A stretch of DNA of 64,000 nt from the NCBI GenBank assembly GCA_033032865.1, contig JAWHQI010000756.1, positions 124,001-188,000 on the forward strand, in the 5' to 3' direction. This DNA comes from Dactylorhiza incarnata. Its lineage: Eukaryota; Streptophyta; Magnoliopsida; Asparagales; Orchidaceae. The notes below the pieces were generated by a model that made no database searches, was not told the origin of the DNA, and saw only the letters and a list, made by a program, of their open reading frames with translations. Positions 2,581 through 55,167 of the stretch are shown here, piece by piece; the first letter of the stretch is position 1; each line of letters begins with the position of its first letter. A program made the position numbers and the translations under genes.

Positions 2581-5046
2581 ATGATTTATAGGGAGCAAGG
2601 AGCAAGGAGCAAGGAGGTACACATTTTGAGGGCTTTTGTGGATGGAGGAGGGATGACGGTGGAGAGGCGACGACAACGGAGGGGGGTGAGCGCACGGGGA
2701 ACATGACACTGCGGAGGGGGGATGACGGAGGGGGGTAAGGGAATGACAGATAGCATGGGCTCCTCTGTCGTTCCCTCCTCTATTGGGCCCACTTTTGTTG
2801 TGCCCTCCTCCGTCACGCTCGCCGCAGTTCACAGAGTACGGTGCACGGGGTACGAAGTACGGTGCTAGGAGACCGGGGCACAAGGCACCGCACTCGCCTC
2901 AGTCACACACTCCTTCGTTATCCCTCCTTCATTTTGAAATTATTTTTTAATGTTTAATGTTTATGATTTATAAGGAGCAAGGAGCAAGGAGCAAGGAGCA
3001 TGAGCAAGGAGCAAGGAGCAAGGAGCAAGGAGCAAGGAGCAAGGAGCAAGAAGCAAGGAGCAAGGAGCAAGGAGCAAGGAGGTACACATTTTGAGGGATT
3101 CTGTGGATGGAGGAGGGATGACGGTGGAGAGGGGACGACAACGGAGGGGGGTGAGCGCACAGGGAACATGACACTGCGGAGGGGGGATGACGGAGGGGGG
3201 TAAGGGAATGACAGATATCATGGGCTCCTCTATCGTTCCCTCCTCTATTGAGCCCACTTTTGTTGTGCCCTCCTCCGTCACGCTCGCCGCAGTTCACAGA
3301 GTACGGTGCACGGGGTACGAAGTACGGTGCTAGGAGACCGGGGCACAAGGCACCACACTCGCCTCAGTCACACTCTCCTTCATTATCCCTCCTTCATTTT
3401 GAAATTATTTTTTAATGTTTAATGTTTATGATTTATAAGGAGCAAGGAGGTACACATTTTGAGGGCTTCTGTGGATGGAGGAGGGATGACGGTGGAGAGG
3501 GGACGACAACGGAGGGGGGTGAGCGCACGGGGAACATGACACTGCGGAGGGGTGATGACGGAGGGGGGTAAGGGAATGACAGATATCATGGGCTCCTCTG
3601 TCGTTCCCTCCTCTATTGTGCCCACTTTTGTTGTGCCCTCCTCCGTCACGCTCGCCGCAGTTCACAGAGTACGGTGCACGGGGTACGAAGTACGGTGCTA
3701 GGAGACCGGCGCACAAGGCACCGCACTCACCTCAGTCACACTCTCCTTCGTTATCCCTCCTTCATTTTGAAATTATTTTTTAATGTTTAATGTTTATGAT
3801 TTATAAGGAGCAAGGAGCAAGGAGGTACACATTTTGAGGGCTTCTGTGGATGGAGGAGGGATGACGGTGGAGAGGGGACGACAACGGAGGGGGGTGAGCG
3901 CACGGGGAACATGACACTGCAGAGGGGGGATGACGGAGGGGGGGTAAGGGAATGACAGATAGCATGGGCTCCTCTGTCGTTCCCTCCTCTATTGGGCCCA
4001 CTTTTGTTGTGCCCTCCTCCGTCACGCTCGCCGCAGTTCATAGAGTACGGTGCACGGGGTACGAAGTACGGTGCTAGGAGACCGGGGCACAAGGCACCGC
4101 ACTCGCCTCAGTCACACACTCCTTCGTTATCCCTCCTTCATTTTGAAATTATTTTTTAATGTTTAATGTTTATGATTTATAAGGAGCAAGGAGCAAGGAG
4201 CAAGGAGCAAGGAGCAAGGAGCAAGGAGCAAGGAGCATGAGCAAGGAGCAAGGAGCAAGGAGCAAGGAGCAAGGAGCAAGGAGCAAGGAGCAAGGAGCAA
4301 GAAGCAAGGAGCAAGGAGCAAGGAGCAAGGAGGTACATATTTTGAGGGATTCTGTGGATGGAGGAGGGATGACGGTGGAGAGGGGACGACAACGGAGGGG
4401 GGTGAGCGCACAGGGAACATGACACTGCGGAGGGGGGATGACGGAGGGGGGTAAGGGAATGACAGATATCATGGGCTCCTCTATCGTTCCCTCCTCTATT
4501 GAGCCCACTTTTGTTGTGCCCTCCTCCGTCACGCTCGCCGCAGTTCACAGAGTACGGTGCACGGGGTACGAAGTACGGTGCTAGGAGACCGGGGCACAAG
4601 GCACCACACTCGCCTCAGTCACACTCTCCTTCATTATCCCTCCTTCATTTTGAAATTATTTTTTAATGTTTAATGTTTATGATTTATAAGGAGCAAGGAG
4701 GTACACATTTTGAGGGCTTCTGTGGATGGAGGAGGGATGACGGTGGAGAGGGGACGACAACGGAGGGGGGTGAGCGCACGGGGAACATGACACTGCGGAG
4801 GGGGGATGACGGAGGGGGGTAAGGGAATGACAGATATCATGGGCTCCTCTGTCGTTCCCTCCTCTATTGTGCCCACTTTTGTTGTGCCCTCCTCCGTCAC
4901 GCTCGCCGCAGTTCACAGAGTACGGTGCACGGGGTACGAAGTACGGTGCTAGGAGACCGGCGCACAAGGCACCGCACTCACCTCAGTCACACTCTCCTTC
5001 GTTATCCCTCCTTCATTTTGAAATTATTTTTTAATGTTTAATGTTT
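2581..5046. repeat. Higher-order repeat: two copies of a three-monomer block
   Basis: Monomers starting at 2581, 2963 and 3428 recur in the same order, with the same private variants, at 3796, 4172 and 4679. Diagnostics are the ATAGCATGGGC variant in the first monomer, a GAGCATGAGC interruption inside the heptamer run in the second, and ACCGGCGCACAAGG in the third. The block period is about 1.21-1.25 kb. The block was probably copied by unequal exchange. Confidence 0.8.
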
Positions 5047-5796
5047 ATGATTTATAAGGAGCAAGGAGCAAGGAGGTACACATTTTGAGGGCTTCTGTGG
5101 ATGGAGGAGGGAAGACGGTGGAGAGGGGACGACAACGGAGGGGGGTGAGCGCATGGGGAACACTGCGGAGGGGGATGACGGAGGGAGTAAGGTAATGACA
5201 GATATCATGGGCTCCTCTGTCCTTCCCTCCTCTATTGTGCCCACTTTTGTTGTGCCCTCCTCCGTCACGCTCGCCGCAGTTCACAGAGTACGGTGCACGG
5301 GGTACGAAGTACGGTGCTAGGAGACCGGGGCACAAGGCACCGCACTCGCCTCAGTCACACTCTCCTTCGTTATCCCTCCTTCATTTTGAAATTATTTTTT
5401 TATGTTTAATGTTTATGATTTATTAGGAGCAAGGAGTAAGGAGCAAGGAGCAAAGAGCAAGGAGGTACACATTTTGAGGGCTTCTGTGGATGGAGGAGGG
5501 ATGACGGTGGAGAGGGGACGACAACGGAGGGGGGTGAGCGCACGGGGAACATGACACTGCGGAGGGGGGATGACGGAGGGGGGTAAGGGAATGACAGATA
5601 TCATGCGCTCCTCTGTCGTTCCCTCCTCTATTGTGCCCACTTTTGTTGTGCCCTCCTCCGTCACGCTCGCCGCAGTTCACAGAGTATGGTGCACGGGGTA
5701 CGAAGTACGGTGCTAGGAGACCGGGGCACAAGGCACCGCACTCGCCTCAGTCACACTCTCCTTCGTTATCCCTCCTTCATTTTGTAATTGTTTTTT

Positions 5797-6073
5797 AATA
5801 TGCGCACGGGGAACATGACACTGCGGAGGGGGATGACGGAGGGGGGTAAGGGAATGACAGATATCATGCGCTCCTCTGTCGTTCCCTCCTCTATTGTGCC
5901 CACTTTTGTTGTGCCCTCCTCCGTCACGCTCGCCGCAGTTCACAGAGTATGGTGCACGGGGTACGAAGTACGGTGCTATCAGACCGGGGCACAAGGCACC
6001 GCACTCGCCTCAGTCACACTCTCCTTCGTTATCCCTCCTTCATTTTGAAATTATTTTTTAATGTTTAATGTTT
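5797..6073. repeat. Internally deleted satellite monomer (~277 bp)
   Basis: The AT-rich linker runs directly into GCGCACGGGGAACATG. The heptamer run and the first part of the G-rich segment are missing. Neighbouring monomers on both sides are full length. Confidence 0.8.
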
Positions 6074-7350
6074 ATGAATTATAAGGAGCAAGGAGCAAGG
6101 AGCAAGGAGCAAGGAGGTACACATTTTGAGGGCTTCTGTGGATGGAGGAGGGATGACGGTGGAGAGGGGACGACAACGGAGGGGGGTGAGCGCACGGGGA
6201 ACATGACACTGCAGAGGGGGATGACCGAGGGGGGTAAGGGAATGACAGATATCATGCGCTCCTCTGTCGTTCCCTCCTCTATTGGGCCCACATTTGTTGT
6301 GCCCTCCTCCGTCACGCTCGCCGCAGTTCACAGAGTACGGTGCACGGGGTACGCAGTACGGTGCTAGGAGACCGGGGCACAAGGCACCGCACTCTCCTCA
6401 GTCACACTCTCCTTCGTTATCCCTCCTTCATTTTGAAATTATTTTTTAATGTTTAATGAGCAAGGAGCAAGGAGCAAGGAGCAAGTAGCAAGTAGCATTT
6501 TGCAAGGAGCAAGGAGGTACACATTTTGAGGGCTTCTGTGGATGGAGGAGGGATGACGGTGGAGAGGGGACGACAACGGAGGGGGGTGAGCGCACGGGGA
6601 ACATGACAATGCGGAGGGGGGATGACGGAGGGGGGTAAGGGAATGACAGATATCATGCGCTCCTCTGTCGTTCCCTCCTCTATTGTGCCCACTTTTGTTG
6701 TGCCCTCCTCCGTCACGCTCGCCGCAGTTCACAGAATACGCTGCTCGGGGTACGAAGTACGGTGCTAGGAGACCGGGGCACAAGGCACCGCACTCGCCTC
6801 AGTCACACTCTCCTTCATTATCCCTCCTTCATTTTGAAATTATTTTTTAATGTTTAATGTTTATGATTTATAAGGAGCAAGGAGCAAGAAGCAAGGAGCA
6901 AGGAGAAAGGAGCAAGGAGCAAGGAGGTACACATTTTGAGAGCTTCTGTGGATGGAGGAGGGATGACGGTGGAGAGGGGACGAGAACGGAGGGGGGTGAG
7001 CGCACGGGGAACATGACACTGCGGAGGGGGGATGACGGAGGGGGGTAAGGGAATGACAGATATCATGGGCTCCTCTGTCGTTCCCTCCTCTATTGTGCCC
7101 ACTTTTGTTGTGCCCTCCTCCGTCACGCTCGCCGCAGTTCACAGAGTACGGTGCACGGGGTACGAAGTACGGTGCTAGGAGACCGGGGCACAAGGCACCG
7201 CACTCGCCTCAGTCACACTCTCCTTCGTTATCCCTCCTTCATTTTGAAATTATTTATTAATGTTTAATGCTTATGATTTATAAGGAGCAAGGAGCAAGGA
7301 GGTACACATTTTGAGGGCTTCTGTGGATGGAGGAGGGATGACGGTGGAGA

Positions 7351-7355
7351 GGGGA
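7351..7355. repeat. Target-site duplication of Tekay-like element (left)
   Basis: The five bases GGGGA flank the left LTR and recur at 16972-16976 after the right LTR. Joining across the element restores an uninterrupted satellite monomer (GAGAGGGGACGACAACGG). Confidence 0.95.
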
Positions 7356-9383
7356 TGTCACGACCCGTCTCGACAAGAGTCAGAGCGCACTTCTGGCGGG
7401 CCGTGATGCCACAGACATGAGCAAAACAGGAAAACCATGTCTGCTAAGGCGGAAACAGAAATACTATAATAGTTTTGAATTTATTACTTTGAAAAGAAAT
7501 TAGTATATTTATAAGTATGCAGAAGCCACAGTGAAAAGTTAAAACTATGCATTTTCATTAAAATCAGATGTCATACATTATACTGAAATGATGAACATGC
7601 AAGGAGTCACAATAGTAAAATGCTATAAGTAAAATGATTTGATACAAGCAAGAACACCCTAAGAGTTGCCCACGATGCCAGAGAAAATGGCTGACAATTA
7701 CTAATACAAGAAAAGTAGATCCAACAGTACTGAAACAAAGTACATAGAACCTGCTGACACAGTAATCAAAATAGAACCTCCAAGCAAAACTGCAGCTGAA
7801 CGAAGAAAACTCAGGGAGCAGACGGCGCGGTCACGAACCCTAAGGCAAATCCAAACAGAAGGAAATGCCTCAGAACAAGAAAATATTTGAAAACAAGCTG
7901 TAATTTTAAGTACATGCAAAAATAAATCTAAAGTACCAATTAACTCTTGAAACAGGCCAGTGACACAGGCAGGTAACTGAAACAAACTGAAACTATCTAG
8001 AAATATTAGCCTACTCCGGAGTATAGCCTAAACAAGTATTTTGCATCGACATAAGCTGTTATCTATGAAATGCGTAGGTGTTTATGGTGGGCACACATGG
8101 TTCACACTCAAGTCCAAGTTTAAGGCTCACCAGAATAAGGGTATTCCATGCTCACCGTGACCATGCAAGCAAGACGTTGCACCACCTAAAACCTAGTTTC
8201 CACGATTCGCTTATGACACTCAAGACCTAAGGGTTTCATGTTTTTCCGAGGAGATTCCTATCGCAACGCGACATGTTCGCGAGTGATAGTGCTTATGCCA
8301 TCAGATATTGATAATAATTTAGAAAACCAGTAAAAGAAATTAAATTCTTGTTTGCAAGCGAGAGGGAATTTCTCCACTTGCCTTAAGGTGAAGCCGCAAC
8401 TACCAGCAACAACTATGCGGCGCAAGCAAGGACAAGGCTCTATTGAACCTGTTCAGAAATAATCGCAGTCGATATTTGATTCTTGACAAGTAGAAAACCA
8501 TACGCTAACACACGCAGTTATTTGCGAAAACACACTCAAGAGCGGATTAGCAATTTACCTCCCTCAAGGTGAGGGGAGAAGAAGTTACCACAAGGATCCA
8601 GAGTTTGGCGGCGCTTGAGTGACGAAAACCCTAAATCGGAGAGGGTTCGGAGCGATTCCACCACTAGATCTGATGTGCGGCACCGGAAACGCAAACAAAA
8701 ATTGGGGTTAGGCGGAATTACGACAAACATAAGAGGGACCGATGAAATTACGTCGATCGAATAGCGAAAATCACCGCAAGCATTTAGGGCAAATCTAAAA
8801 ACAGAACTTTTGGCGGAGATCCTTACCGAAGGAGACCAGATTTGGGCTCAGGAATCCACGAGGAGGGGTTTCGAGCGAAACCCTAGGAGTCCCCTTGAAA
8901 TCCGCCGGCCGAAACGGAGAGGAAGCGGGGTTGTCGACCTCTTTGGAGGAGGAGGAGCTACTGCTGGCCGGAGGAAGCAAGGGAGGAGGGCTGCTGCCCT
9001 AACTGGCCGAGGAAGGAGGAGAAAAAAAGAAGCGGCCTTGCTGCTGCCGTCGACTTGGAGGGGGGAGGAAGCGGCCCTTGCTGCTGCCGTCGACCAGGAG
9101 AAGGGAAGGAGGCGCAGGTGGCGGCGCCGGCGGGAGGAGGCGCAGGCGGCGGCGGCGGCAAGAGGAGGAGCGGGCGGCGGCGTCACTGATCGCGGGAGAC
9201 GGGAGCGGCACGAGAGCGGGAGCCCTAGCGATTTTGGTTTGCGGTTCTTTTGCGTGAGGGCTGGACCGAAATTTAATCGGGGAGTTTAAATTGGGGGGGG
9301 GGGGGGGGGGAAGGAAGGATGGCTTAATATAATTGTTATTATAATTATCATTTTTTTTTTAATTGTTTTTAAGGGTTGTTACA
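7356..9383 (-). repeat. 3' LTR of Tekay-like element
   Basis: This is a 2028-bp direct repeat of 14934-16971. Read on the minus strand it begins TGTAACAACCC and ends GGTCGTGACA. It holds an AT-rich U3 start, a poly-C/G tract (plus-strand G run near 9292-9310), a very GC-rich stretch (about 9040-9200) and two telobox-like motifs (AAACCCTAA at 8626-8634 and AAACCCTAG at 8878-8886). Small ORFs inside it are low complexity and I do not call them genes. Confidence 0.95.
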
Positions 9384-9393
9384 TTCTCCCCTA
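9384..9393 (-). other. Polypurine tract of Tekay-like element
   Basis: Read on the minus strand, TAGGGGAGAA lies immediately upstream of the 3' LTR start TGTAACAACCC. This is the expected site for plus-strand DNA priming. Confidence 0.8.
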
Positions 9394-9546
9394 CTTAGAA
9401 AGTTTCGTCCCGAAACTTCTGAGGATTCTCTTTATGACGAATATTAGGATGACATTCATTCCAACAGGGTTTGCAATTCAAGTCAAGAGATCTAACTGAA
9501 AAGGCACTTAAAAAGAGAGAGGAACAAGAGCGGAGGCATACCGGGA
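9394..9546 (-). other. 3' untranslated segment of Tekay-like element
   Basis: About 150 bp lie between the stop of the chromodomain reading frame and the polypurine tract. I see no further ORF or motif here. Confidence 0.6.
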
Positions 9547-10020
9547 TCAAGAGAAAAGATGCGGATACTTGCTACGCATGTCAGCTTCGAGCTCCCAAGT
9601 GAACTCCTCAGACTTGCCATGCATCCAAAGTACCTTCACCATAGGAATGGTCCTCTTTCGAAGTTTGCGCTCTTGATATTCCACTATCTTGGCGGGCTCA
9701 ATCGGATAAGACAGATTAGCTTCAGGAACCACCGGAATTTCCTCAAGAACACGAGTAGGATCATGGATGTATTTCCGGAGCTGACTGACATGGAAAACAT
9801 CATGAACACCGGACAACGAATCTGGCAACTCCAAACGATAAGCAGATCCTCCAACACGCTCTGAGATGGTGTACGGCCCCACAAATCTCGGGCTGAGCTT
9901 ATGATGGCGACCAAACCGTTTCACCCCAGGAGTAGGAGAAACCTTCAAGAACACCTGATCACCTACTGCAAACTCCAACGGACGGCGACGCTGATTAGCA
10001 TATTTCCTGTCTTTCAATGG
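9547..10020 (-). pseudogene. pol: Pol C-terminus with chromodomain (frame 3 of broken pol)
   Basis: This is the C-terminal end of the integrase plus a chromodomain. The real coding part begins near KDRKYANQRRRP, where the frame returns after a single-base insertion at about 10005-10015. It continues through GDQVFLKVSP and GPYTISERVGGSAYRLELP, the SH3-like integrase C-terminal region. It ends with a chromodomain-like segment (VEYQERKLRKR, VKVLWMHGKSEEFTWE) just before the stop. In chromoviruses this module is thought to tether integrase to heterochromatin, which fits insertion into a satellite. The ORF extends upstream to 10155, but that part is out of frame with its neighbours. Frame and length agree with Tekay-type pol ends. 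The break itself is certain from frame comparison, but a sequencing error in the copy cannot be excluded. Confidence 0.85.
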
Positions 10021-10162
10021 CACGGCCGAGCTGAAGACGAGTCTTCTTGGTGGCTTCTTCCATTTCCTGAAGTAACTCAGGGCCCAACACCACCTTCTCA
10101 CCAACTTCCGACCAATAGAGAGGAGTTCTACAACGACGCCCATACAATGCTTCAAAGGGGGG
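10015..10162 (-). pseudogene. pol: Pol integrase segment in shifted frame
   Basis: About 50 codons encode the conserved stretch [15 protein letters not shown] and following residues. They are readable only in a frame different from both flanking pol segments. The upstream shift is an extra base in the G6 run at 10157-10162 (C6 on the coding strand, where C5 would keep the frame). The downstream shift is one extra base near 10005-10015. Both are single-base insertions. The alignment of recognisable integrase residues across the three frames shows one ancestral ORF. Confidence 0.85.
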
Positions 10163-12901
10163 CCATCTTGAGGCTTTCCTGATAGCTATTGTTGTAGGCG
10201 AACTCAACCAACGGTAGGTGCTCATCCCAAGCTCCCTTGAAGTCCAGAATATAACACCGAAGCATGTCTTCCAGGATCTGATTAACCCTTTCGGTCTGCA
10301 CATCGGTAGTTGGATGATAAGCGGTGCTCAGGTTGAGCTCGGTACCCAAGGCTTGCTGAAAACCCTTCCAAAAGTGCGAAACGAACCTCGAATCACGATC
10401 AGAGACAATCCGCAGAGGAATCCCATGAAGTCTAACTATCTCAGAAACATAAATCCGGGCCATCTTCTCGGTGGAGTGACCTTCCTTGTACGGGATGAAG
10501 TGAGCCACCTTCGTCATGCGGTCCACTATGACCCAAATCGCATCATGCCCTCTCGGAGTACGGGGCAAACCCGTGATGAAGTCCATAGAGACATCTTCCC
10601 ACTTCCATTCGGGGATAGGTAAGGGCTGCAGAAGACCACCAGGACGCTGACGCTGAGCTTTCACCTTCTGGCACGTCAGACATCGAGAGATGAAGCGAGT
10701 TATATAATTCTTCATACCAGGCCACCAAACGATTTGCTTCAAGTCATGATACATTTTATTGTTGCCTGGATGACCAGATGTGCGAGACTCGTGAGCTTCC
10801 CGGCAAATACTATCGAGCAATTCAGGAACATCAGGAATGCAGAGGCGGCCTCGAAAACGCAGAACATCATCAGAGATAGAGAAATCCGGAAGAGTCCCAA
10901 GTTCAACCTGTCGGCGGATGCGCTGGAGTGCGGGGTCAGATGGCTGTAAATCCTTCACCTGCTCTACCCATAACGGAACGGGAACCTCTTCATGACCTTC
11001 TGGCGCGATGGATATATCCATCCGATCGAGGTCATCAATCAAGGCTGCTAGAATAGCTGACATGGGTGCACAAGCGGCTACGGAGGCATGCCGGCTCAAC
11101 GCATCTGCCACTGAATTGGCTTTACCAGGAACATACGTGAGCTGCAAGTCATAATCTGCCACGAACTCGAGCCAACGCCTCTGACGAAGATTGAGGTCCT
11201 TCTGAACAAAGATGTACTTTAAACTCTGGTGGTCAGTGAAAAAGTGACACTTCACGCCATAGAGATAATGGCGCCAAAGCTTCAGAGCAAACACCACCGC
11301 AGCGAACTCCAGATCATGAGTGGGGTAGTTGCGTTCGTGAACCTTCAACTGCCTCGACCCATAAGCAATGACATGATCATCCTGCATCAGGACACAACCC
11401 AAACCAACTCCGGAAGCGTCAGTGTAAACTGAAAAGTCCATCCCTTCTGACGGGAGGGCTAGAACAGGCGCTGAACACAGACGTTGCTTCAACTCAGAAA
11501 ATGACTGTTCGCACTGATCTGTCCACTTGAATCTAGCATGCTTTTGAGTTAGTCGAGTCAGGGGAGCAGCAAGAGAGGAAAAACCCTTGACGAAGCGTCG
11601 GTAATAGCCAGCCAAACCAAGGAAACTGCGGATCTCGGTAGGGGTAGAAGGTCGCTTCCAGTCCATAACTGCGGAAATCTTGGCAGGGTCAACAGAAAGT
11701 CCATCTCCTGAAATGACGTGGCCTAAGAAGGCGACACGGTCCAGCCAGAACTCACATTTTGCCAACTTGGCATAGAGCTGATGCTGACGAAGAGTGGAGA
11801 GAGTGAGTCTAAGATGGGCTGCATGCTCCTCGAGAGTCTTGGAGTAGACCAGGATATCATCAATGAAGACGATGATGAACTTGTCCAGGTACTCACGAAA
11901 GACACGGTTCATCATGTCCATGAATGCAGAAGGGGCGTTAGTCAACCCAAAAGACATCACCAAAAACTCAAAATGTCCATACCGAGTTCGGAAGGCCGTC
12001 CTGGGGATGTCGGAGTCCTTGATCTTCAGCTGATGGTAACTCGATCTGAGATCTATCTTTGAAAAAACTGAACTGCCCTTAAGCTGATCGAATAAGTCAT
12101 CCACATGCGGAAGGGGGTACTTATTCTTGATGGTCACCTTATTAAGATCTCGGTAGTCGATGCACAATCTCATGGATCCATCCTTCTTTTTCACGAAGAG
12201 TACAGGGGCTCCCCAAGGTGACGAGCTAGGGCGAATGTACCCACGCTCAAGCAATTCGTCTAACTGCGATCTGAGTTCTTCTAGCTCACGCGGTGCCATG
12301 CGGTAAGGAGCTTTAGATATGGGGCGCGTCCCAGGCTCTACATCAATACAGAACTCCACATCTCGATCAGGGGGCATCCCAGGCAATTCGGCGGGGAACA
12401 CGTCAGGAAACTCCGAAGCAACATAAATAGACTCGAGTTTAGGAGAGATAGCATCCGAGTGCGAAGCATAAACGTAGCAGACAGTACATCCTTGGCTAAG
12501 AAGTCGAGTGCCACGTACAGCCGAGATTACCTTCAGGTGACTGCGGGTCTGAACATGAACGTTGTAGTCTTTGCCATCAATGCTGAGATTGACCCTCTTT
12601 GCCACACAGTCCAGTTTTGCTCGATACGCGACCAACCAATTCATTCCCAAGATTACGTCGAACTCTGTCATCTCCAAAACTATGAGATCGGCGACGACTA
12701 GCAACTCTCCAAGCAGGATCGGGCAATTGAGAACGCCTCTGGTTGAGAGATGCAGATGACCGGGTACAGAAATCTCAAAAGGAACCTCAAGTGGCGAAGT
12801 ATGCCAACTATAAAGGTCCACGATGCGGCGGGTGATAAAAGAGTGCGATGCACCAGAGTCAAATAAGATTTGCATCCACTTATACTTGACCCTAAAACTT
12901 C
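10152..12901 (-). CDS. pol: Pol: protease, RT, RNase H, integrase (3' end frameshifted)
   Basis: This is the main enzymatic polyprotein. The open frame reaches back to 12929, but coding probably resumes at 12901 after the proposed intron. Numbering residues from 12929: the aspartic protease motif DSGASHSF has its Asp at 24; the RT catalytic motif is FIDD at 355-358; RNase H acidic residues include YTDAS (Asp 504), HDLEF, TDHQSL and VADALSR (Asp 609); integrase has the zinc-binding H713, H720, C750, C753 and the catalytic triad D783, D844, E880 with the DD35E spacing. All key residues are present, so enzyme function was lost only through the 3' frameshifts. The ORF ends in KMAPL at the extra base in 10157-10162. 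No ATG start is evident, so expression must come from fusion to gag, either by splicing or by recoding. Confidence 0.95.
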
Positions 12902-12996
12902 CTAAAAATGAAAACATAAAGCATAGCAAGTTTGTTCGACTAAGGCAAGTTAGATTTAAGAATGCAGAAAAATTTAAAATTCTACACCAAACATAC
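12902..12996 (-). other. Candidate 95-bp spliceosomal intron between gag and pol
   Basis: On the minus strand the segment starts GTATGT after exon TCTG and ends TTTCATTTTTAG before exon GAAG. It is T-rich and AT-rich, unlike the flanking coding DNA. It contains a CTAAC branch-point match (plus-strand 12949-12953, about 49 nt from the acceptor). It carries the in-frame TAA that ends gag. Removing it joins gag and pol in one frame, with a split glycine codon (phase 1) at the junction, just upstream of the protease active site. Canonical borders, phase and composition all agree, but splicing has not been observed. The alternative is a decayed linker with a chance stop. Confidence 0.62.
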
Positions 12997-14254
12997 CAGA
13001 GATGACGTCGGTAGATGCAAGCGCCTCGCCCTGAGTGACGACGTTCAGCACAGCTCTGCCCTGAGCTCCGGGGATAACTTGCAGAGGTTGAGCGGGGATC
13101 GGGCTATCCTTTATGGGGCAGTCGAGCATGAGGTGCCCAACCTGCCCACATTTGAAACAGGCCTTCTGCTTGCGGCGGCAGTCCTTTACCAAGTGGCCCG
13201 ATCTCTTGCAGAAAGCACAGACGGAGGCAGCAGAGGCAAGTGTCAACTGAGGTTGCTGCGCAGGGGTAACCATCTTCTGCTTCTTCAGGAGGGAGCGGCA
13301 GACTTGGGCGACATGGTCCACCTTGTGGCAGAAGGCACACACCTCTTTGGACCTGGGGCCTTGCTGCTGAGCTGGAGCATCCTTGCGCTTGAGGTCGGAT
13401 GCGGCGGCATTGCTTGTCCCATGCTGGGCTTTCTTGGCAGAACGATCCAACTCAATAGCTTCCACCTGCAAGGCGGCTCCCACGGTCTCCGCGTAGGTGG
13501 TGGCGCCATGAGCTACCACAAGCTGGCGGAAGTCATGATGGAGCCCCTTCACGAAATGGCTGATCTTTTTGTCTTCATCCGGCACGAACTCCGGAGCGAG
13601 GAGGGAAAGGCGGGAGAACTCTCTCGCGTACTCGGTCACTGTCCTACCAGTCTGCTGAAGGGACAGGAACTTCTCAGCTAACTTGTCCCGTTCCACGGAA
13701 GAGAGGAAGTTCTCCATAAGAGCGTCCTTGAACTGTCTCCAAGATAAGGTGGCAGAATCAGGGAGGCTGCGGCGCTGGAGCCACCAAGTATAAGCATCCT
13801 CAGACAATTGATAGGCCGCAAGGAGGACCTTCTGGGTCTCGGGAACTCCAGCATACTCAAAATGCTTCTCCATCTGGGAGATCCATTCAGTGATCACGAA
13901 GAAGTCTCGATTGCCATCGAAAGACGGCGGATTCAGCCTTTTGAATGCAAGAGTATCTGTCATTGCCACTGGCGGGGCAGGCAGGCTTGGCACGAGCGGG
14001 GGAACCAATGTGACGGCAGGCGAGCCGGTCCTAGAATCAGTTGCAGGAGGGGTGGCTCCAGGAAGGGCAGTAGAGTTAGTCACTGCAGCTGTCCCTGCGC
14101 TGCCGGAACCAAGGGCTGGGTCAGTAGTTTGGCGATCCTCTTCCAGTCGGGTGAGACGCTCCAGAATCTGCCTCATCAGTTGGGCAGTGGTATCTCCAGA
14201 TGTTCCTCCCGCTGAAGAGGTAGCCCGCTTGCGTTGCGATCGTTTCGAAGCCAT
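12974..14254 (-). CDS. gag: Gag with three CCHC zinc knuckles
   Basis: This is a 426-residue structural protein forming the virus-like particle. It begins at an ATG ([10 protein letters not shown]), has a low-complexity N-terminus, then the retrotransposon Gag core ([22 protein letters not shown], the WW pair in [20 protein letters not shown]). Three C-X2-C-X4-H-X4-C knuckles lie at about 306-319, 346-359 and 366-379; they bind nucleic acid. The ORF stops at TAA, seven residues past the glycine where the proposed donor site GTATGT falls. If spliced, Gag instead continues into protease. The frame has no internal stop. A single knuckle is more usual in plant Ty3-gypsy Gag, so three is notable. 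Confidence 0.93.
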
Positions 14255-14918
14255 CTAGAAAGGAACACAAAAGAGACAAGTAAGAGAAATAGTCAGGCTA
14301 AGCTTAGAGGATTGAGACTACAGGTTCTAGCATTCTAATACTGTTGAATACGTAAATCATGTAATAGTTACAGCATTTTCAGTGGACAACTCTAGGTGGT
14401 AATCATGCAAGTGCAAATGCGACGATAAGATCGCGTGCGATAGAAGAATGATTTGAAAAATCCATGTGTGTACAATCATCATCTGTTGCTCTTAGCTTAA
14501 CACTCGTGCAATGAGTTATGTCATGCATGCAATGTATTTATGCCTACAATGCATCCTTAAGAATGTTCATGAATGGATACGCATGCCAAGTTAAGCGCCC
14601 ATATCACTTAGCATGTCACGCGCATGATGATTCTAATGTCAGCGCACTTGAAAATATTAAACCGCCCATACAATTTAATATTCGCAAGCGGTGTATATCC
14701 TAGTGGAAATTCATATGCATATAAATGTTAAGTTTGCCCATACTCCCTTAACATTTGTATGCATACTACTCATGCTTATGAGTGAGTGTGTGCGTGTTTC
14801 AGCCTCGAACAACAGACAATGACAAAGTGAGTGAGGAAATGATGCATGCACGTATATCTACATAATAGATTTCAAAATATAAAAATTTTAAAATATTTTA
14901 TCTTTAGATGCTCAACCT
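14255..14918 (-). other. Untranslated leader of Tekay-like element
   Basis: About 660 AT-rich bases lie between the primer-binding site and the gag ATG. They would hold packaging and dimerisation signals, but I see no specific motif and no convincing ORF. Confidence 0.7.
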
Positions 14919-14931
14919 CCCTCTGATACCA
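14919..14931 (-). other. Primer-binding site, initiator tRNA-Met
   Basis: Read on the minus strand, TGGTATCAGAGGG lies two bases inside the 5' LTR. Its first ten bases match the complement of the 3' end of plant initiator tRNA-Met (TGGTATCAGAGC), the standard primer of chromoviruses. Confidence 0.93.
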
Positions 14932-14933
14932 AC

Positions 14934-16971
14934 TGTCACGACCCGTCTCGACAAGAGTCAGAGCGCACTTCGGGCGGGCCGTGATGCCACAGGCATGAGC
15001 AAAACAGGAAAACCATGTCTGCTAAGGCGGAAACAGAAATACTACAATAGTTTTGAATTTATTACTTTGAAAAGAAATTAGTATATTTATAAGTATGCGG
15101 AAGCCACAGTGAAAGGTTAAAACTATGCATTTTCATTAAAATCAGATGTCATACATTATACTGAAATGATGAACGTGCAAGGAGTCACAATAGTAAAATG
15201 CTATAAGTAAAATGATTTGATACAAGCAAGAACACCCTAAGAGTTGCCCACGATGCCAGAGAAAATGGCTGACAATAACTAATATAAGAAAAGTAGATCC
15301 AACAGTACTGAAACAAAATACATAGAACCTGCTGACACAGTAATCAAAATAGAACCTCCAAGCAAAACTGCAGCTGAACGAAGAAAACTCAGGGAGCAGA
15401 CGGCGCGGTCACGAACCCTAAGGCAAATCCAAACAGAAGGAAAATGCCTCAGAACAAGAAAATATTAGAAAACAAGCTGTAATTTTAAGTACATGCAGAA
15501 ATAAATCTAAAGTACCAATTAACTCTTGAAACAGGCCAGTGACACAGGCAGAAACTGAAACAAGCTGAAACTATCTAGAAATATTAGCCTACTCCGGAGT
15601 ATAGCCTAAACAAATATTTTCCATCGACATAAGCTGTTATCTATGAAATGCGTAGGTGTTTATGGTGGGCACACATGGTTCACACTCAAGTCCAAGTGTA
15701 AGGCTCACCAGAATAAGGGTATTCCATGCTCACCGTGACTATGCAAGCAAGACGTTGCACCACCTAAAACCTAGTTTCCACGATTCGCTTATGACACTCA
15801 AGACCTAAGGGTTTCATGTTTTTCCGAGGAGATTCCTATCGCAACGCGACATGTTCGCGAGTGATAGTGCTTATGCCATCAGATATTGATAATAATTTAG
15901 AAAATCAGTAAAAGAAATTAAATTCTTGTTTGCAAGCGAGAGGGAATTTCTCCACTTGCCTTAAGGTGAAGCCGCAACTACCAGCAACAACTATGCGGCG
16001 CAAGCAAGGACAAGGCTCTATTGAACCTGTTCAGAAATAATCGCAGTCGATATTTGATACTTGACAAGTAGAAAACCATACACTAACACACGCAGTTATT
16101 TGCGAAAACACACTCAAGAGCGGATTAGCAATTTACCTCCCTCAAGGTGAGGGGAGAAGAAGTTACCACAAGGATCCGGAGTTTGGCGGTGCTTGAGTGA
16201 CGAAAACCCTAAATCGGAGAGGGTTCGGAGCGATTCCACCACTAGATCTGATGTGCGGCACCGGAAACGCAAACAAAAATTGGGGTTAGGCGGAATTACG
16301 ACAAACATAAGAGGGACCGATGAAATTACGTCGATCGAATAGCGAAAATCACCGCAAGCATTTAGGGCAAATCTGAAAACAGAACTTTTGGCGGAGATCC
16401 TTACCGAAGGAGACCAGATTTGGGCTCAGGAATCCACGAGGAGGGGTTTCGAGTGAAACCCTAGGAGTCCCCTTGAAATCCGCCGGCCGAAATGGAGAGG
16501 AAGCGGGGTTGTCGACCTCTTTGGAGGAGGAGGAGCTACTGCTGGCCGGAGGAAGTAAGGGAGGAGGGCTGCTGCCCTAACTGGCCGAGGAAGGAGGAGA
16601 AAAAAAGAAGCGGCCTTGCTGCTGCCGTCGACTTGGAGGGGGAGGAAGCGGCCCTTGCTGCTGCCGTCGACCAGGAGAAGGGAAGGAGGCGCAGGCGGCG
16701 GCGCCGGCGGGAGGAGGCGCAGGCGGCGGCGTCGGCAAGAGGAGGAGCGGGCGGCGGCGTCACTGATCGCGGGAGACGGGAGCGGCACGGGAGCGGGAGC
16801 CCTAGCGATTTTGGTTTGCGGTTCTTTTGCGTGATGGCTGGACCGAAATTTAATCGGGGAGTTTAAATTGGGGGGGGGGGGGGAAGGAAGGATGGCTTAA
16901 TATAATTGTTATTATAATTATCATTTTGTTTTATTTTTTTTTTATTTTAATTGTTTTTAAGGGTTGTTACA
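14934..16971 (-). repeat. 5' LTR of Tekay-like element
   Basis: This 2038-bp LTR lies next to the primer-binding site, so it is the 5' LTR of a minus-strand element. It is nearly identical to 7356-9383, with scattered substitutions and small indels. It shares private variants with the truncated LTR at 45212-47140 (for example GTATGCGGAAGCC against GTATGCAGAAGCC in the other LTR), which makes those two the duplicated pair. The transcription start should lie inside it, but I cannot place a TATA box with confidence. Confidence 0.95.
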
Positions 16972-19900
16972 GGGGACGACAACGGAGGGGGGTGAGCGCA
17001 CGGGGAACATGACACTGCGGAGGGGGGATGACGGTGGGGGGTAAGGGAATGACAGATATCATGCGCTCCTCTGTCGTTCCCTCCTGTATTGTGCCCACTT
17101 TTGTTGTGCCTCCTCCGTCACGCTCGTCGCAGTTCACAGAATACGTTGCACGAGGTACGAAGTACAGTGCTAGGAGACCGGGGCACAAGGCACCGCACTC
17201 GCCTCAGTCACACTCTCTTTCGTTATCCCTCCTTCATTTTGTAATTATTTTTTAATGTTTAATGTTTATGATTTATAAGGAGCAAGGAGAAAGGAGCAAG
17301 GAGCAAGGAGCAAGGAGCAAAGAGCAAGGAGGTACACATTTTGAGGGCTTCTGTGGATGGAGGAGGGATGACGGTGGAGAGGGGACGACAACGGAGGGGG
17401 GTGAGCGCACGGGGAACATGACACTGCGGAGGGGGGATGACGGAGGGGGGTAAGGGAATGACAGATATCATGCGCTCCTCTGTCGTTCCCTCCTCTATTG
17501 TGCCCACTATTGTTGTGCCCTCCTCCGTCACGCTCGCCGCAGTTCATAGAGTACGGTGCACGGGGTACGAAGTACGGTGCTAGGAGACCGGGGCACAAGG
17601 CACCGCACTCGCCTCAGTCACACTCTCCTTCGTTATCCCTTCTTCATTTTGAAATTATTTTTTAATGTTTAATGTTTATGATTTATAAGGAGCAAGGAGC
17701 AAGGAGCAAGGAGGTACACATTTTGAGGGCTTCTTTGGATGGAGGAGGGATGACGGTGGAGAGGGGACGACAACGGAGGGGGGTGAGCGCACGGGGAACA
17801 TGACACTGCAGAGGGGGGATGACGGAGGGGGGTAAGGGAATGACAGATATCTTGGGCTCCCCTGTTGTTCCCTCCTCTATTATGCCCACTTTTGTTGTGC
17901 CCTCCTCCGTCACGCTCGCCGCAGTTCACAGAGTACGGTGCACGGGGTACGAAATACGGTGCTAGGAGACCGGGGCACAAGGCACCGCACTCGCCTCAGT
18001 CACACTCCCCTACGTTATCCCTCCTTCCTTTTTAAATTATTTTTTAATGTTTAATGTTTATGATTTATAAGGAGCAAGGAGCAAGGAGGTACACATTTTG
18101 AGGGCTTCTGTGGATGGAGGAGGGAAGACGGTGGAGAGGGGACGACAACGTAGGGGGGTGAGTGCACGGGGAACATGACACTGCGGAGGGGGGATGACGG
18201 AGGGGGGTAAGGGAATGACAGATATCATGCGCTCCTCTGTCGTTCCCTCCTCTATTGTGCCCACTTTTTTTGTGCCCTCCTCCGTCACGCTCGTCGCAGT
18301 TCACAGAAAACGCTGTACGAGGTACGAAGTACGGTGCTAGGAGACCAGGGCACAAGGCACCGCAATCGCCTCAGTCACACTCTCCTTCGTTATCCCTCCT
18401 TCATTTTGAAATTATTTTTTAATGTTTAATGTTTATGATTTATAAGGAGCAAGGAGCAAGGAGCAAAGAGCAAGGAGCAAGGAGCAAGGAGGTACACATT
18501 TTGAGGGCTTCTGTGGATGGAGGAGGGATGACGGTGGAGAGGGGACGACAACGGAGGGTGGTGAGCGCACGGGGAACATGACACTGCGGAGGGGGGATGA
18601 CGGAGGGGGGTAAGGGAATGACAGATATCATGGGCTCCTTTGTCGTTCCCTCCTCTATTGTGCCCACTTTTGTTGTGCCCTCCTCTGTCACGCTCGCCTC
18701 AGTTCACAAAGTACGGTGCACGGGGTACGAAGTACGGTGCTAGGAGACCGGGGCACAAGGCACTGCACTCGCCTCAGTCACACTCTCCTTCGTTATCCCT
18801 CCTTCATTTTGAAATTATTTTTTAATGTATAATGTTTATGATTTATAAGGAGCAAGGAGGTACACATTTTGAGGGCTTCTGTGGATGGAGGAGGGATGAC
18901 GGTGGAGAGGGGACGACAACGGAGGGGGGTGAGCGCACGGGGAACATGACACTGCGAAGGGGGGATGACGGAGGGGGGTAAGGGAATGACAGATATCATG
19001 CGCTCCTCTGTCGTTCCCTCCTCTATTGTGCCCACTTTTGTTGTGCCCTCCTCCGTCACGCTCGCCGCAGTTCACAGAGTACGGTGCACGGGGTACGAAG
19101 TACGGTGCTAGGAGACCGGGGCACAAGGCACCGCACTCGCCTCAGTCACACTCTCCTTCGTTATCCCTCCTTCATTTTGAAATTATTTTTTAATGTTTAA
19201 TGTTTATGATTTATAAGGAGCAAAGAGCAAGGAGCAAGGAGCAAGGAGGTACACATTTTGAGGGCTTCTGTGGATGGAGGAGGGATGACGGTGGAGAGGG
19301 GACGACAACGGAGGGGGGTGAGCGCACGGGGAACTAGACACTGCGGAGGGGGGATGACGGAGGGGGGTAAGGGAATGACAGATATCATGCGCTCCTCTGT
19401 CGTTCCCTCCTCTCTATTGTGCCCACTATTGTTGTGCCCTCCTCCGTCACGCTCGCCGTAGTTCACAGAGTAGGTGCACGGGGTACGAAGTACGGTGCTA
19501 GGAGACCGGGGCACAAGGCACCGCACTCGCCTCAGTCACACTCTCCTTCGTTATCCCTCCTTCATTTTGAAATTATTTTTTAATGTTTAATGTTTATGAT
19601 TTATAAGAGCAAGGAGCAAGGAGCAAGGAGCAAACAGGTACACATTTTGAGGGTTTCTGTGGATGGAGGAGGGATGACGGTGGAGAGGGGACGACAACGG
19701 AGGGGGGGTGAGCGCACGGGGAACATGACACTGCGGAGGTGGGATGACGGAGAGGGGTAAGGGAATGACAGATATCATGGGCTCCCCTGTCGTTCCCTCC
19801 TCTATTGTGCCCACTTTTGTTGTGCCCTCCTCGGTCACGCTCGCCGCAGTTCACAGAGTACGGTGCACGGGGTACGAAGTACGGTGCTAGGAGACCGGGG

Positions 19901-22723
19901 CACAAGGCACCGCACTAACCTCAGTCACACTCTCCTTCGTTATCCCTCCTTTAAATTATTTTTTAATGTTTAATGTTTATGATTTATAAGGAGCAAGGAG
20001 CAAGGAGTAAGGAGCAAGGAGCAAGGAGCAAGGAGATACACATTTTGAGGGCTTCTGTGGATGCAGGAGGGATGACGGTGGAGAGGGGACGACAACGGAG
20101 GGGGGTGAGCGCACGGGGAACATGACACTGCGGAGGGGGGATGATGGAGGGGGGTAAGGGAATGACAGATATCATGCGCTCCTTTGTCGTTCCCTCCTCT
20201 ATTGTGCCCACTTTTGTTGTGCCCTCCTCCGTCACGCTCGTCGCAGTTCACAGAGTACGTTGTACGAGGTACGAAGTACGGTGCTAGGAGACCGGGGCAC
20301 AAGGCCCCGCACTCGCCTCAGTCACACTCTCCTTCGTTATGCCTCCTTCATTTTGAAATTATTTTTTAATGTTTAATGTTTATGATTTCTAAGGAGCAAG
20401 GAGCAAGGAGCAAGGAGCAAGGGGTAAGGAGGTACACATTTTGAGGGCTTCTGTGGATGGAGGAGGGATGACGGTGGAGAGGGGACGACAACGGAAGGTG
20501 GTGAGTGCACGGGGAACCTGACACTGCGGAGGGGGGATGACGGAGGGGGGTAAGGGAATGACAGATATCACGGGCTCCTCTGTCGTTCCCTCCTCTATTG
20601 TGCCCACTTTTGTTGTGCCCTCCTCCGTCACGCTCGCCGCAGTTCACAGAGTACGGTGCACGGGGTACGAAGTACGGTGCTAGGAGACCGGGGCACAAGG
20701 CACCGCACTCGCCTCAGTCACACTCTCCTTCGTTATCCCTCCTTCATTTTGAAATAATTTTTTAATGTATAATGTTTATGATTTATATGGAGCAAGGAGC
20801 AAGGAGCAAGGAGGTACACATTTTGAGGGCTTCTGTGGGTGGAGGAGGGATGACGGTGGAGAGGGGACGACAATGGAGGGGGGTGAGCGCACGGGGAACA
20901 TGACACTGCGGAGGGGGATGACGGAGGGGGTAAGGGAATGACAGATATCATGCGCTCCTCTGTCGTTCCCTCCTCTATTGTGCCCACTTTTGTTGTGCCC
21001 TCCTCCGTCACGCTCGCCGCAGTTCACAGAGTACGGTGCACGGGGTACGAAGTACGGTGCTAGGAGACCGGGGCACAAGGCACCGCACTCACCTCAGTCA
21101 CACTCTCCTTCGTTATCCCTCCTTCATTTTGAAATTATTTTTTAATGTTTAATGTTTATGATTTATAAGGAGCAAGGAGCAAGGAGCAAGGAGGTACACA
21201 TTTTGAGGGCTTCTATGGATGGAGGAGGGATGACGGTGGAGAGGGGACGACAACGGAGGGGGGTGAGCGCACGGGGAACATGACATTGCGGAGGGGGGAT
21301 GACGGAGGGGGGTAAGGGAATGACAGATATCATGGGCTCCTCTGTCGTTCCCTCCTCTATTAGGCCGACTTTTGTTGTGCCCTCCTCAGTCACGCTCTCC
21401 GCAGTTCACAGAGTACGGTGCACGGGGTACGAAGTACGGTGCTAGGAGACCGGGGCACAATGCACCGCACTAGCCTCAGTCACACTCTCCTTCGTTATCC
21501 CTCCTTCATTTTGAAATTATTTTTTAATGTTTAATGTTTATGATTTATAAGGAGCAAGGAGCATGGAGGTACACATTTTGAGGGCTTCTGTGGATGGAGG
21601 AGGGATGACGGTGGAGAGGGGACGACAACGGAGGGGGGTGAGCGCACGGCGAACCTGACACTACGGAGGGGGGATGACGGAGGGGGGTAAGGGAATGACA
21701 GATATCATGCGCTCCTCTGTCGTTCCCTCCTCTATTGTGGCCACTTTTGTTGTTCCCTCCTCCGTCACGCTCGCCGCAGTTCACAGAGTACGTTGCACGG
21801 GGTACGAAGTACAGTGCAAGGAGACCGGGGCACAAGGCACCGCACTCGCGTCAGTCACACTCTCCTTCGTTATCCCTCCTTCATTTTGAAATTATTTTTT
21901 TATGTCTAATGCTTATGATTTATAAGGAGCAAGGAGGAAGGAGCAAGGAGGTACACATTTTGAGGGCTTCTGTGGATGAGGAGGGATGACGGTGGAGAGG
22001 GGATGACAACGGAGGGGGGTGAGCGCACGGGGAACATGACACTGCGGAGGGGGGATGACGGAGGGGGGTAAGGGAATGACAGATTTCATGCACTCCTCTG
22101 TCGTTCCCTCCTCTATTGTGCCCACTTTTGTTGTGCCCTCCTCCGTCACGCTCGCCGCAGTTCACAGAGTACGGTGCACGGGGTACGAAGTACGGTGCTA
22201 GGAGACCGGGGCACAAGGCACCGCACTCGCCTCAGTCACACTCTCCTTCGTTATCCCTCCTTCATTTTGAAATTATTTTTTAATGTTTAATGTTTATGAT
22301 TTATTAGGAGCAAGGAGCAAGGAGCAAGGAGCAAGGAGAAAGGAGCAAGGAGCAAGGAGGTACACATTTTGAGGGCTTCTCTGGATGGAGGAGGGATGAC
22401 GGTGGAGAGGGGATGACAACGGAGGGGGGTGTGCGCACGGGGAACATGACACTGCGGAGTGGGGATGACGGACGGGGGTAAGGGAATGACAGATATCATG
22501 GGCTCCTCTGTCGTTCCCTCCTCTATTGGGCCCACTTTTGTTGTGCCCTCCTCCGTCACGCTCGCCGCAGTTCACAGAGTACGGTGCACGGGGTACGAAG
22601 TACGGTGCTAGGATACCGGGGCACAAGGCACCGCACTCGCCTCAGTCACACTCTCCTTCGTTATCCCTCCTTCATTTTGAAATTATTTTTTAATGTTTAA
22701 TGTTTATGATTTATAACAAGCAA

Positions 22724-26066: not shown

Positions 26067-26383
26067 TGTTGAAACCGAAATCTTGAGGACAAGACTTGGT
26101 CTCTGTGGAGTTCGGGGTCCCTAAGAAGGGGTGGTCTCACACCTACTTCCCTCGAGCCAACTCTCTAGGCAAGAGCACTTAGATTTGGAAACGGACCAAG
26201 GGCTTAGTGGGGAGGTCCCGCCACATACCCGGAAGTCCCCTTGGAACTTCCCCTCCCAAGCCACTACTAAGCTTGGGCACCACTGGAGCCTCTCCTCACC
26301 TCTCTAGAGAGACTTGCTGAGGAGGGAGAGAGAGGAGAGAGCTAGCTAAGAATGAGATCCCCTCAAATGGTGCCCCCTTGGTC

Positions 26384-26393
26384 CTATTTATAG
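26384..26393 (-). promoter_or_regulatory. TATA box of the gag-inserted solo LTR
   Basis: CTATAAATAG on the minus strand is a near-perfect plant TATA box. It is followed downstream (lower coordinates) by a pyrimidine-rich leader-like stretch. Confidence 0.7.
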
Positions 26394-26404
26394 GTTTTTC
26401 GGAT

Positions 26405-26530
26405 CTGGACTGCGAATAGCCAAAACTGGACTGCGAATAGCCAAATCCCGCTGTTCTGAAGCGCTAAACGCAGACCACCGGACTGCGAATAGCCAAAACT
26501 GGACTGCGAATAGCCAAAACTGGACTGCGA
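26405..26530. repeat. Short repeats GGACTGCGAATAGCCAAA in solo LTR
   Basis: Five copies, some truncated, of a ~21-bp unit with core GGACTGCGAATAGCCAAA lie upstream of the solo LTR TATA box, in two clusters with a short spacer. Confidence 0.85.
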
Positions 26531-26598
26531 AGGGGCCTCCCCTGGGCGAGAGGGGTACCTCGCGGGGCTCGGCGAGCCCCCTTGCTGGGCGAGGGCGA

Positions 26599-26600
<2 letters not shown>

Positions 26601-26632
<32 letters not shown>

Positions 26633-27095
26633 CCGCCCCTCCTCCTCTCGCCCCTGGCTGGGCGCGGGCGAGAGGTGGGGCACCCGCCCCTCCTCTCGCC
26701 TCCAAGCCGGGCGAGTGGGGGGGGCGAGCCGCCCCTCCCCCCTTCTCGCCACCAAGCTGGGCGAGTGGGGGGGGGGGGGCGAGCCGCCCCTCCCCCCTTC
26801 TCGCCACCAAGCTGGGCGAGTGGGGGGGGGGGGGGGGGGGGGGGCGAGCCGCCCCTCCCCCCTTCTCGCCACCAAGCTGGGCGAGTGGGGGGGGGGGGGG
26901 GGGGCGAGCCGCCCCTCCCCCCTTCTCGCCACCAAGCTGGGCGAGTGGGGGGGGGGGGGGGGGGCGAGCCTCCCCTCCCCCCTCCTCGCCACCAAGCTGG
27001 GCGAGTGGGGGGGCGAGCCGCCCCTCCCCCCTTCTCGCCACCAAGCTGGGCGAGTGGGGGGGGGGGCGAGCCGCCCCTCCCCCCCTTCTCGCCTC
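26601..27095. repeat. Poly-G minisatellite in solo LTR U3
   Basis: About seven copies of a 50-66-bp unit (CTTCTCGCCACCAAGCTGGG, GCGAGT, a G run, then GCGAGCCGCCCCTCCCCC) differ mostly in G-run length. The first G run is 29 bases (26601-26629). It has strong G-quadruplex potential. Run lengths may be unreliable in any assembly. Confidence 0.9.
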
Positions 27096-27279
27096 CTCAA
27101 TGAGCAGGGCGAGCGGGAGGTCTCCGCCTCCACCGCTGGTCCTCTTTGCCTCCACCTCCCTTCCTGCATGGGTAGACGTTACCATGATGCTCCAATGAGC
27201 CTTTGGGAGTATACTCGGCGAATAGCGGGGTTGCACAACGCTGGGCCTTACTCGATGGATATGGGGGTTGTACAACATG

Positions 27280-28267
27280 TATATTCAGTGGAGTTGAAAA
27301 CGACCCGCAAAAGATCCTAGCATTTTCATTTTCCCTACATAATAAAGCCAAAAGCTGGTACTGGGATTTCCGGAAAAGAGAGGCGACCTCATGGAAGCAG
27401 CTCGAGGGGAGATTTTTGCATGAGTTTCAACACCGTACTCGAGTGTTGGACAAGTACAGGGAACTCATAACCTTCGGTCAGGGAAAGGAGGAGACGCTAG
27501 TTGATGCTTGGGAGCGTTTTCAATCCCTGCATCGGGGATGCTACCGTGAAGATCTATCAGAAGTCTTTCTAATTCAGATTTTCTATTTCGGCGTGTTGGA
27601 CAAATTCCGTCTGTTATTCGATGTGGCAGCCGGAGGGGCCCTGTTTAATAAATCGGGGAAGGACGCGTGGGAAGTGGTCGTGAATATTGTTCACACCAAC
27701 CAGCACTGGAGTCATGTCATTTTTTCCCCCAGTACTGCTGAAGTGAATGCAGTAACATTCCACGGAGCAGCGGGTCACGTGCCGTCAGGGCAAACGGAGC
27801 CGTTAGCAGCTTTGGTGGTCGGGATGCTGGATAAAATGAATGACCAATCTTCCGCAATTCAACAGCTTCACTCCACTATAGGGATTCTTACCAATGTTGT
27901 TTCTGGGCTTGCAAGTCAGCATCCGGAGTCTGTGAATACCATGCGATTGAGAAGCTGTAGAGGTGTTGACAATCCTCCTCGACAGGAACCACTTGTGAGG
28001 CCTACTGACAAGTGTAATTCAGACATGGCCGAGAAGCAGACTCAGATTCATGTTGAGCCAGACCTCGTGAGCGAGGCACGACCCTCGGGAAGTGTTGTTC
28101 ACCCCCCATTCCCCCACAGGTTGCGAAACGAGAAATCCGAGAAGCAGTTCCGCAAATTCCTGGAAATAATGAAAGGAGTGCAAGTGAGCATCCCTCTGAT
28201 TGAAGCCATTTCTCAAATGCCGGGCTACTCCAAGTTCTTGAAAGACTTGATTTCGAAGCGGAGACTG
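27280..28267 (+). pseudogene. gag: Gag C-terminal part and protease start, Athila copy 1
   Basis: Gag continues after the solo LTR and its second TSD. It contains the Athila-type Gag core (AFSFSLHNKAKSWYWDF, FQHRTRVLDKYRELITFGQG, the AAGGALFNKSGKD motif) and the linker leading to protease (PLIEAISQMPGYSKFLKDL). There is no CCHC knuckle. A one-base deletion near 28267 (GACTGTGG; copy 2 has GACTGTTGG) shifts the frame before the protease. This deletion is private to copy 1. Confidence 0.88.
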
Positions 28268-30026: not shown

Positions 30027-30626
30027 GCCTTTGAAACTTTACGGGGACAACTCATCTCGGCTTCAATTTTGGTGGTACCCGACTGGAATTTACCCTTTAT
30101 TATCATGTGTGACGCAAGTGATGTGGCCGTAGGTGTTGTACTCGGTCAAAAGAAAGATAAGACTTTTCACACCATTGCGTATGCCAGTAGAACTCTCAAC
30201 AGCGCGCAAGCAAACTATACCACCACGGAGAAAGAAATGCTTGCCGTGGTCTTCGCCTTTGAAAAATTTCACTCATACTTGGTACTTTCCGAAGTAATCG
30301 TGTACACGGACCACGCTGCACTCAGGTATCTTTTCAGCAAAAAAGAATCCAAATCGCGTCTGATTCGTTGGATTTTACTTTTGCAGGAATACAATTTTGA
30401 AATCAAAGACAAGAAAGGGGTGGAGAACGTGATAGCTGATCATCTTTCGCGGTTGGAGTACGATATGACGGCCGACATCCCCAACAGCTTTGTGGAGGAA
30501 ACGAACGATTATTTCCCGGATGAAAAGTTATTCGCAATCACTACGCCTCATCCAACAGCCCCATGGTACGCTGATATTGCTAACTACTTGGCTTGTAAAA
30601 CCCTTTCTCCGAATCTGTCCCCTTAG
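30021..30626 (+). pseudogene. pol: RNase H and start of integrase, Athila copy 1
   Basis: RNase H domain: [38 protein letters not shown] and VIADHLSRL supply the acidic residues. The frame begins at the shared frameshift, so it has no proper start. It ends at TAG 30624-30626 where copy 2 has CAG (57272-57274), so the nonsense mutation is private to copy 1. Confidence 0.92.
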
Positions 30627-53536: not shown

Positions 53537-53542
53537 AGTTTT

Positions 53543-53560
53543 TGGCGCCGTCGCCGGGGA
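53543..53560 (+). other. Primer-binding site, tRNA-Asp type (copy 2)
   Basis: TGGCGCCGTCGCCGGGGA, identical to the copy 1 site, six bases after the LTR end. Confidence 0.85.
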
Positions 53561-53732
53561 ATGCAGACGTGATGAATTCGTCTGCGTGAAAAATCGTTGC
53601 ACGAGGAACTTTTCTCTTTTATTATTTCTCTTTGTTTACCTCTGTTGTCTTTGCTTATTTTTGATACGCACATTTCTTTACCTTCGTTCTTTCCATCGTG
53701 CGCTAATCTTTTGGGTTTTAAGTATTCCTAGC

Positions 53733-55160: not shown

Positions 55161-55167
55161 AAAAAAA

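Follow-up and report, generated by a model that had tools for sequence, protein, structure and literature searches.

Plant long terminal repeat (LTR) retrotransposons need more Gag than Pol. Most of their groups encode one open reading frame (ORF) according to the overview in PMC6317226, and introns are generally absent from them, with Ogre and EVADE as the notable exceptions named in a 2025 review (PMC12786077). Retention of an intron for Gag and its removal for Gag-Pol is the logic described for Ogre, of the Tat lineage of Ty3/gypsy (PMC6317226), and it is the logic that we propose here for an element in a 64,000-nucleotide (nt) stretch of Dactylorhiza incarnata DNA (contig JAWHQI010000756.1, positions 124,001 to 188,000), the whole of which is called the window. 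This Ty3/gypsy retrotransposon (7356-16971, minus strand) carries a 95-nt segment that would, with a probability of about 0.92, be a spliceosomal GT-AG intron kept between gag and protease: unspliced RNA would serve as genome and for Gag, and a fraction arising by partial splicing would give Gag-Pol.

Among the elements to be compared, CRR is taken by us to be a chromovirus, and Bianca presumably belongs to Ty1/copia and thus to a different superfamily. Ogre is a non-chromovirus, and its intron is placed after the protease, between PROT and reverse transcriptase (RT), in the description of PMC6317226, whereas that of the window element lies before the protease Asp and measures 75-103 nt in the copies measured. 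In BARE1 and EVD of Ty1/copia the balance between Gag and Pol depends on an intron close to the end of gag (in BARE1 it is 104 nt long and U-rich; PMC3735527), but the logic is reversed, since splicing leads to a Gag-only RNA and unspliced RNA to Gag-Pol, as outlined in PMC12786077, PMC3735527 and PMC8892269. DNA copies of spliced BARE RNA were reported as not amplifiable (PMC3735527); here, four intronless copies are found. Transcripts of the Gypsy element CRR are spliced as well, but by the same account (PMC3735527) the reaction removes rt and makes two ORFs, and no joining of gag to pol is described. For Bianca, two ORFs with a spacer averaging 172 bp are given in PMC6317226, where the account of the element does not report splicing. 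Beet chromoviruses, including families of the Tekay clade, are described in PMC3605345 with the same domain order and a terminal chromodomain, but with gag and pol as one continuous ORF. Among the matches listed from the open-licence literature, as judged by titles and abstract openings, none reports an intron between gag and pol for a Tekay-type element. If the proposed reading is true, it would add a lineage-wide splicing switch of a kind new to chromoviruses, at a gag/protease site, different from that of Ogre, where Gag and Pol may be separated by splicing.

On the minus strand of the window, the exon ending in GTCATCTCTG (end at 12997) is followed by the segment GTATGT...CTAAC...TTTTCATTTTTAG (12996-12902) and then by GAAGTTTTAGGG (from 12901). 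The features at this junction are the following.

12974..14254, minus strand: gag ORF, 426 amino acids, with its TAA within the putative intron (profiles Retrotrans_gag, Ty3_capsid and zf-CCHC)
12997..14254, minus strand: exon 1, the part of gag that ends with base one of the split Gly codon (sequence, ORFs)
12902..12996, minus strand: putative intron, 95 nt, GTATGT ... CTAAC ... TTTTCATTTTTAG (sequence, composition, copies)
12949..12953, minus strand: branch-point-like CTAAC (all 40 close copies have CTAAC or CTGAC)
10152..12901, minus strand: exon 2, with protease, RT, RNase H and a portion of integrase (profiles RVP_2, with a match that starts no earlier than profile position 23, RT, RNase H and Integrase_H2C2)

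The gag ORF (14254-12974) terminates at a TAA inside the 95-nt segment, and excision of GT..AG would join gag to pol via a split Gly codon, 14 residues ahead of the catalytic protease Asp. Both the T-rich 95-bp GT..AG segment with its gag TAA and CTAAC, and the fusion of gag to pol through a split Gly upstream of the protease Asp, had been claimed by a preceding sequence-only reading, and both are borne out by sequence, ORFs and composition. The segment has 28% GC and 47% T, while 95-mers over 14254-9547 average 51% GC; of the 95-mers shown for that range, the three poorest in GC begin at 12987-12980 and overlap the segment. GTATGT or GTAAGT occurs in sense over the same range at two sites only, 12996 and 11136, and the CTAAC at 12953-12949 stands 48 nt from the 3' border. 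The first codons of the segment, GMFGVEF (12997-12974), resemble the start of exon 2, GSFRVKY (12901-12881), both on the minus strand, which may reflect duplication or chance.

By identity, the nearest proteins come from Platanthera zijinensis, the genome of which was annotated by MAKER with de novo, homology and RNA-seq prediction, as summarized in PMC9023349. One of these protein models, P0005, carries the joint that splicing predicts; the protease profile, which is matched from 8 to 131 in P0005 but from 23 to 131 in the window pol ORF, is divided by the segment. Of 45 homologous proteins with a script-readable junction, 42 have a Gly 14 residues before the catalytic Asp, the spacing that splicing would give here; the misses are P0021, P0058 and P0069. 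A JGI protein (P0025) whose pol is 74% identical begins at the protease (MHVLFDSG) and perhaps represents another interrupted gag/pol junction. No relative turned up when viral contigs and genomes of prokaryotes were scanned.

Further copies were searched for in the genome that contains the window (G000, 3.27 Gb). The 40 close copies, all fetched, are those scored out of 798 candidates and include the window locus; they are not an unbiased sample, because they are the nearest matches to a query containing the intron. The segment is 95 nt long in all 40, begins with GTATGT or GTACGT in all 40 and ends in AG in 39, and CTAAC or CTGAC lies 48 nt from the AG in every copy. For these close copies, the comparison of family members that the sequence-only reading had proposed finds the segment kept and its borders intact, but for the one AG. 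One close copy (L036) has TAA in place of TAG at the 3' border plus another change in the tract, and would be predicted to splice poorly.

Exact matches to the exon flanks with a gap of 85-115 nt occur at 287 places in the genome (control, 1), copies with altered flanks being missed by this count. When the first 100 of these were inspected, one was dropped as unrelated and 99 were kept; with lengths that assume nine exon-2 bases ahead of the second flank, their introns measure 90-103 nt and fall into all three length phases (58/25/16), and a GT donor is present in 97. Twelve diverged copies, hand-picked from the flank-match list and read whole, have introns that are 62-80% identical to that of the window, with 40-51% T. 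GT starts are seen in ten and AG ends in 11 of them, and VIS-G-[RSK]FRVK spans the joint in 11; some have broken frames further downstream. A search for the branch point in these 12 introns gave no one clear motif.

A second clade, with a gag about 40% identical to that of the window's clade, was located with protein P0072 (216,777 first-look candidates, 31 scored); this search returned copies in which a break between the gag and pol matches falls at the same codon. A 78-nt intron at the same Gly codon and in the same phase is present in 19 of the 20 copies read, with the donor GTTAGA and one ATTAGA mutant, so that GT is kept in 18 of 19. Flanks of subclade 2b with a gap of 70-100 nt were matched at 602 places (control, 0), and in the first 100 of those listed the introns span 75-86 nt and all three phases. 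Among the proteins of this clade, P0046, P0049, P0072, P0123 and P0132 show a similar joint, [IF]SG[KRS]FKV[KR]N; P0122, P0130, P0131 and P0136 stop exactly at V/AISG, and P0129 continues into a hydrophobic stretch. An entire chromovirus lineage, with at least two families of about 40% gag identity in this genome, would probably have inherited one gag/protease intron, with inefficient splicing by the host as the sole route to Pol.

Copies without the segment were sought by the same flanks with a gap of 0-30 nt. In the window's clade two places were found (control, 1), one exact (L010) and one inexact (L009), and in subclade 2b three places (control, 0), all exact, among them C1460; across both clades, four exact intronless copies stand against one inexact deletion. 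L010 is an element with both LTRs (95.5% identical) and a GAGTC target-site duplication, and its interior is about 93-94% like the window element, with the gap falling at the intron. The inexact copy (L009, also L012; G000:C1723:1464629) has lost most of the intron and retains part of it, with TTTTA-like microhomology.

For the first clade, midpoint rooting of a 37-row tree (L013, L022, L026, L029 and L036 omitted, their coverage being incomplete) places the farthest row, L012 of the L009 locus, which keeps part of the intron, outside L010. In the tree of the second clade, in which three rows fill less than 50% of the columns, one of them sitting on a long branch, the three intronless copies require three changes, at least two of them forced by strong branches; the C1460 copy (L070) groups with intron-bearing copies, and the intron-bearing subclade 2a lies outside. 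An ancestral absence of the intron was rejected, as intronless copies stand among or beside intron-bearing ones in the trees. Exact loss has most likely occurred several times, and repeated exact losses better fit reverse transcription of spliced RNA than microhomology deletion. Members devoid of the segment had been named beforehand as a finding that would speak against an intron; such copies are rare, and in four of the five the missing stretch is precisely the predicted intron, the outcome expected of reverse-transcribed spliced RNA. The exact copies would be fossils of spliced RNA. The numbers of intronless and intron-bearing copies by exact flank match, 1 versus about 287 in the window's clade and 3 versus 602 in subclade 2b, would gauge how seldom spliced RNA gets reverse-transcribed; from them it seems that the copied RNA was almost always unspliced.

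According to the mechanism proposed, unspliced full-length RNA would be the packaged and reverse-transcribed genome as well as the mRNA for Gag, with translation stopping within the intron, and the spliced fraction of the transcripts would give Gag-Pol, since the protease regains its conserved Gly-x13-Asp spacing once the intron is removed. The presumably weak donors (GTACGT, GTTAGA) would leave the bulk of the RNA unspliced, to be packaged and to make Gag, and occasional reverse transcription of spliced RNA would leave an intronless copy. Since gag read-on meets stops in the diverged first-clade copies and in the second-clade introns, and the copied RNA seems mostly unspliced, both RNA forms should coexist. 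The DNA evidence consists of conserved borders, the same position in a divergent clade, freedom of length and phase, and exact intronless copies. Together with the 287 and 602 flank matches, it supports, at the level of DNA, the earlier suggestion that retention of the intron would yield Gag and its removal Gag-Pol.

Several points weigh against this interpretation. It is from DNA that we infer RNA splicing, and we infer in addition that splicing would be partial and would set the Gag to Gag-Pol ratio. Three P. zijinensis models (P0067, P0121 and P0138) exit gag at VIS but join elsewhere, and P0021 skips the junction. As pol has an open frame across the segment in all 40 close copies, this group, the window copy included, is by itself also compatible with a -1 frameshift. 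Inexact deletion happens as well, as L009 shows, and with two to three bases (GG or AGG) shared by the flanks, any single exact loss could have come about by chance through microhomology. For the second clade, the branch point is unclear, the 78-nt introns of subclade 2b have one stop-free frame, and the donor GTTAGA is presumably far from the plant consensus.

Of the other explanations, a functionless intron-like insertion survives best, though it is very unlikely. It would have entered dead copies once and been amplified by trans-complementation, with intronless copies being ancestral or deleted; the frames of both the window copy and L010 are indeed broken, intronless copies do exist, and the case as a whole is built on DNA. 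Such an insertion would not explain why the two clades, whose gag is about 40% identical, share position and phase, nor why borders are retained while the interiors diverge. Moreover, some second-clade copies have a stop-free pol, and intronless copies are interspersed with intron-bearing ones.

Programmed -1 ribosomal frameshifting in the gag/pol overlap, with the T-rich segment as ordinary coding sequence, is highly improbable. Its attraction is that pol is in the -1 frame relative to gag and, in the window copy, is open back to 13103, which gives a 130-nt overlap upstream of the gag stop, and that the segment is open in the close copies. The one motif scanned for, an in-frame X XXY YYZ heptamer, is absent from the overlap of the window copy, and a slip would add residues before the protease, unlike in the 42 of 45 relatives. 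In addition, stops occur in all three frames of the segment in 11 of the 12 diverged copies, and the segment occurs in every length phase; frameshifting throughout the family is contradicted because the frame relation varies among copies in this way. The exact intronless copies would also be left unexplained. Stop-codon readthrough, for which the second clade offers 78-nt introns that put gag and pol in one frame with a TAG directly after the Gly, is hardly conceivable, as two or three in-frame stops interrupt the gag frame in each of the 16 second-clade introns printed, 79-nt introns that break the frame are the commonest in subclade 2b (67 of the first 100 listed), and pol of the window copy lies in another frame.

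The intron-bearing element of the window is delimited by the following further features.

7356..16971, minus strand: complete LTR retrotransposon with the putative intron (LTR pair, primer binding site, polypurine tract, target-site duplication; gag, protease, RT, RNase H and integrase domains)
14934..16971, minus strand: 5' LTR, 97.4% identical to the 3' LTR across 2044 columns
7356..9383, minus strand: 3' LTR, pairing with the 5' LTR
7351..7355, no strand: target-site duplication GGGGA, second copy at 16972-16976 (sequence)
14922..14931, minus strand: primer binding site TGGTATCAGA (sequence)
9384..9394, minus strand: polypurine tract adjoining the 3' LTR (sequence)
9547..10185, minus strand: pol 3' end in another frame, integrase C-terminus and weak chromodomain (profiles SH3_Tf2-1 and Chromo, E=0.0036)

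With LTRs, target-site duplication, primer binding site, polypurine tract and the order gag-PR-RT-RH-INT, the element has the make-up of Ty3/gypsy. The primer binding site, TGGTATCAGA, is taken by us to be of the initiator-Met type. The name Tekay/Del chromovirus, given on the basis of motifs, is a probable assignment; the Chromo match is weak (residues 163-210, 17.6 bits against a curated cut-off of 25.1). Frame changes around 9995-10327 break the integrase region, and the window copy is for this reason not itself a working element. A substitution rate of 1.65e-8 is given for Platanthera in PMC9023349, where it is printed per Ma; taken as per year, it suggests from 31 LTR mismatches an age of roughly 0.5 My for the window element.

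In the range inspected (4000-20000), a tandem array with spacings of about 260-510 bp, most of them 368-410, flanks the element on both sides (4000-7350 and 16972-20000), and its units contain AAGGAGC runs. Two more Ty3/gypsy-like elements with split frames, similar to each other in the ORF list and presumably Athila-like, lie on the plus strand at 26356-31865 and 53421-58513.
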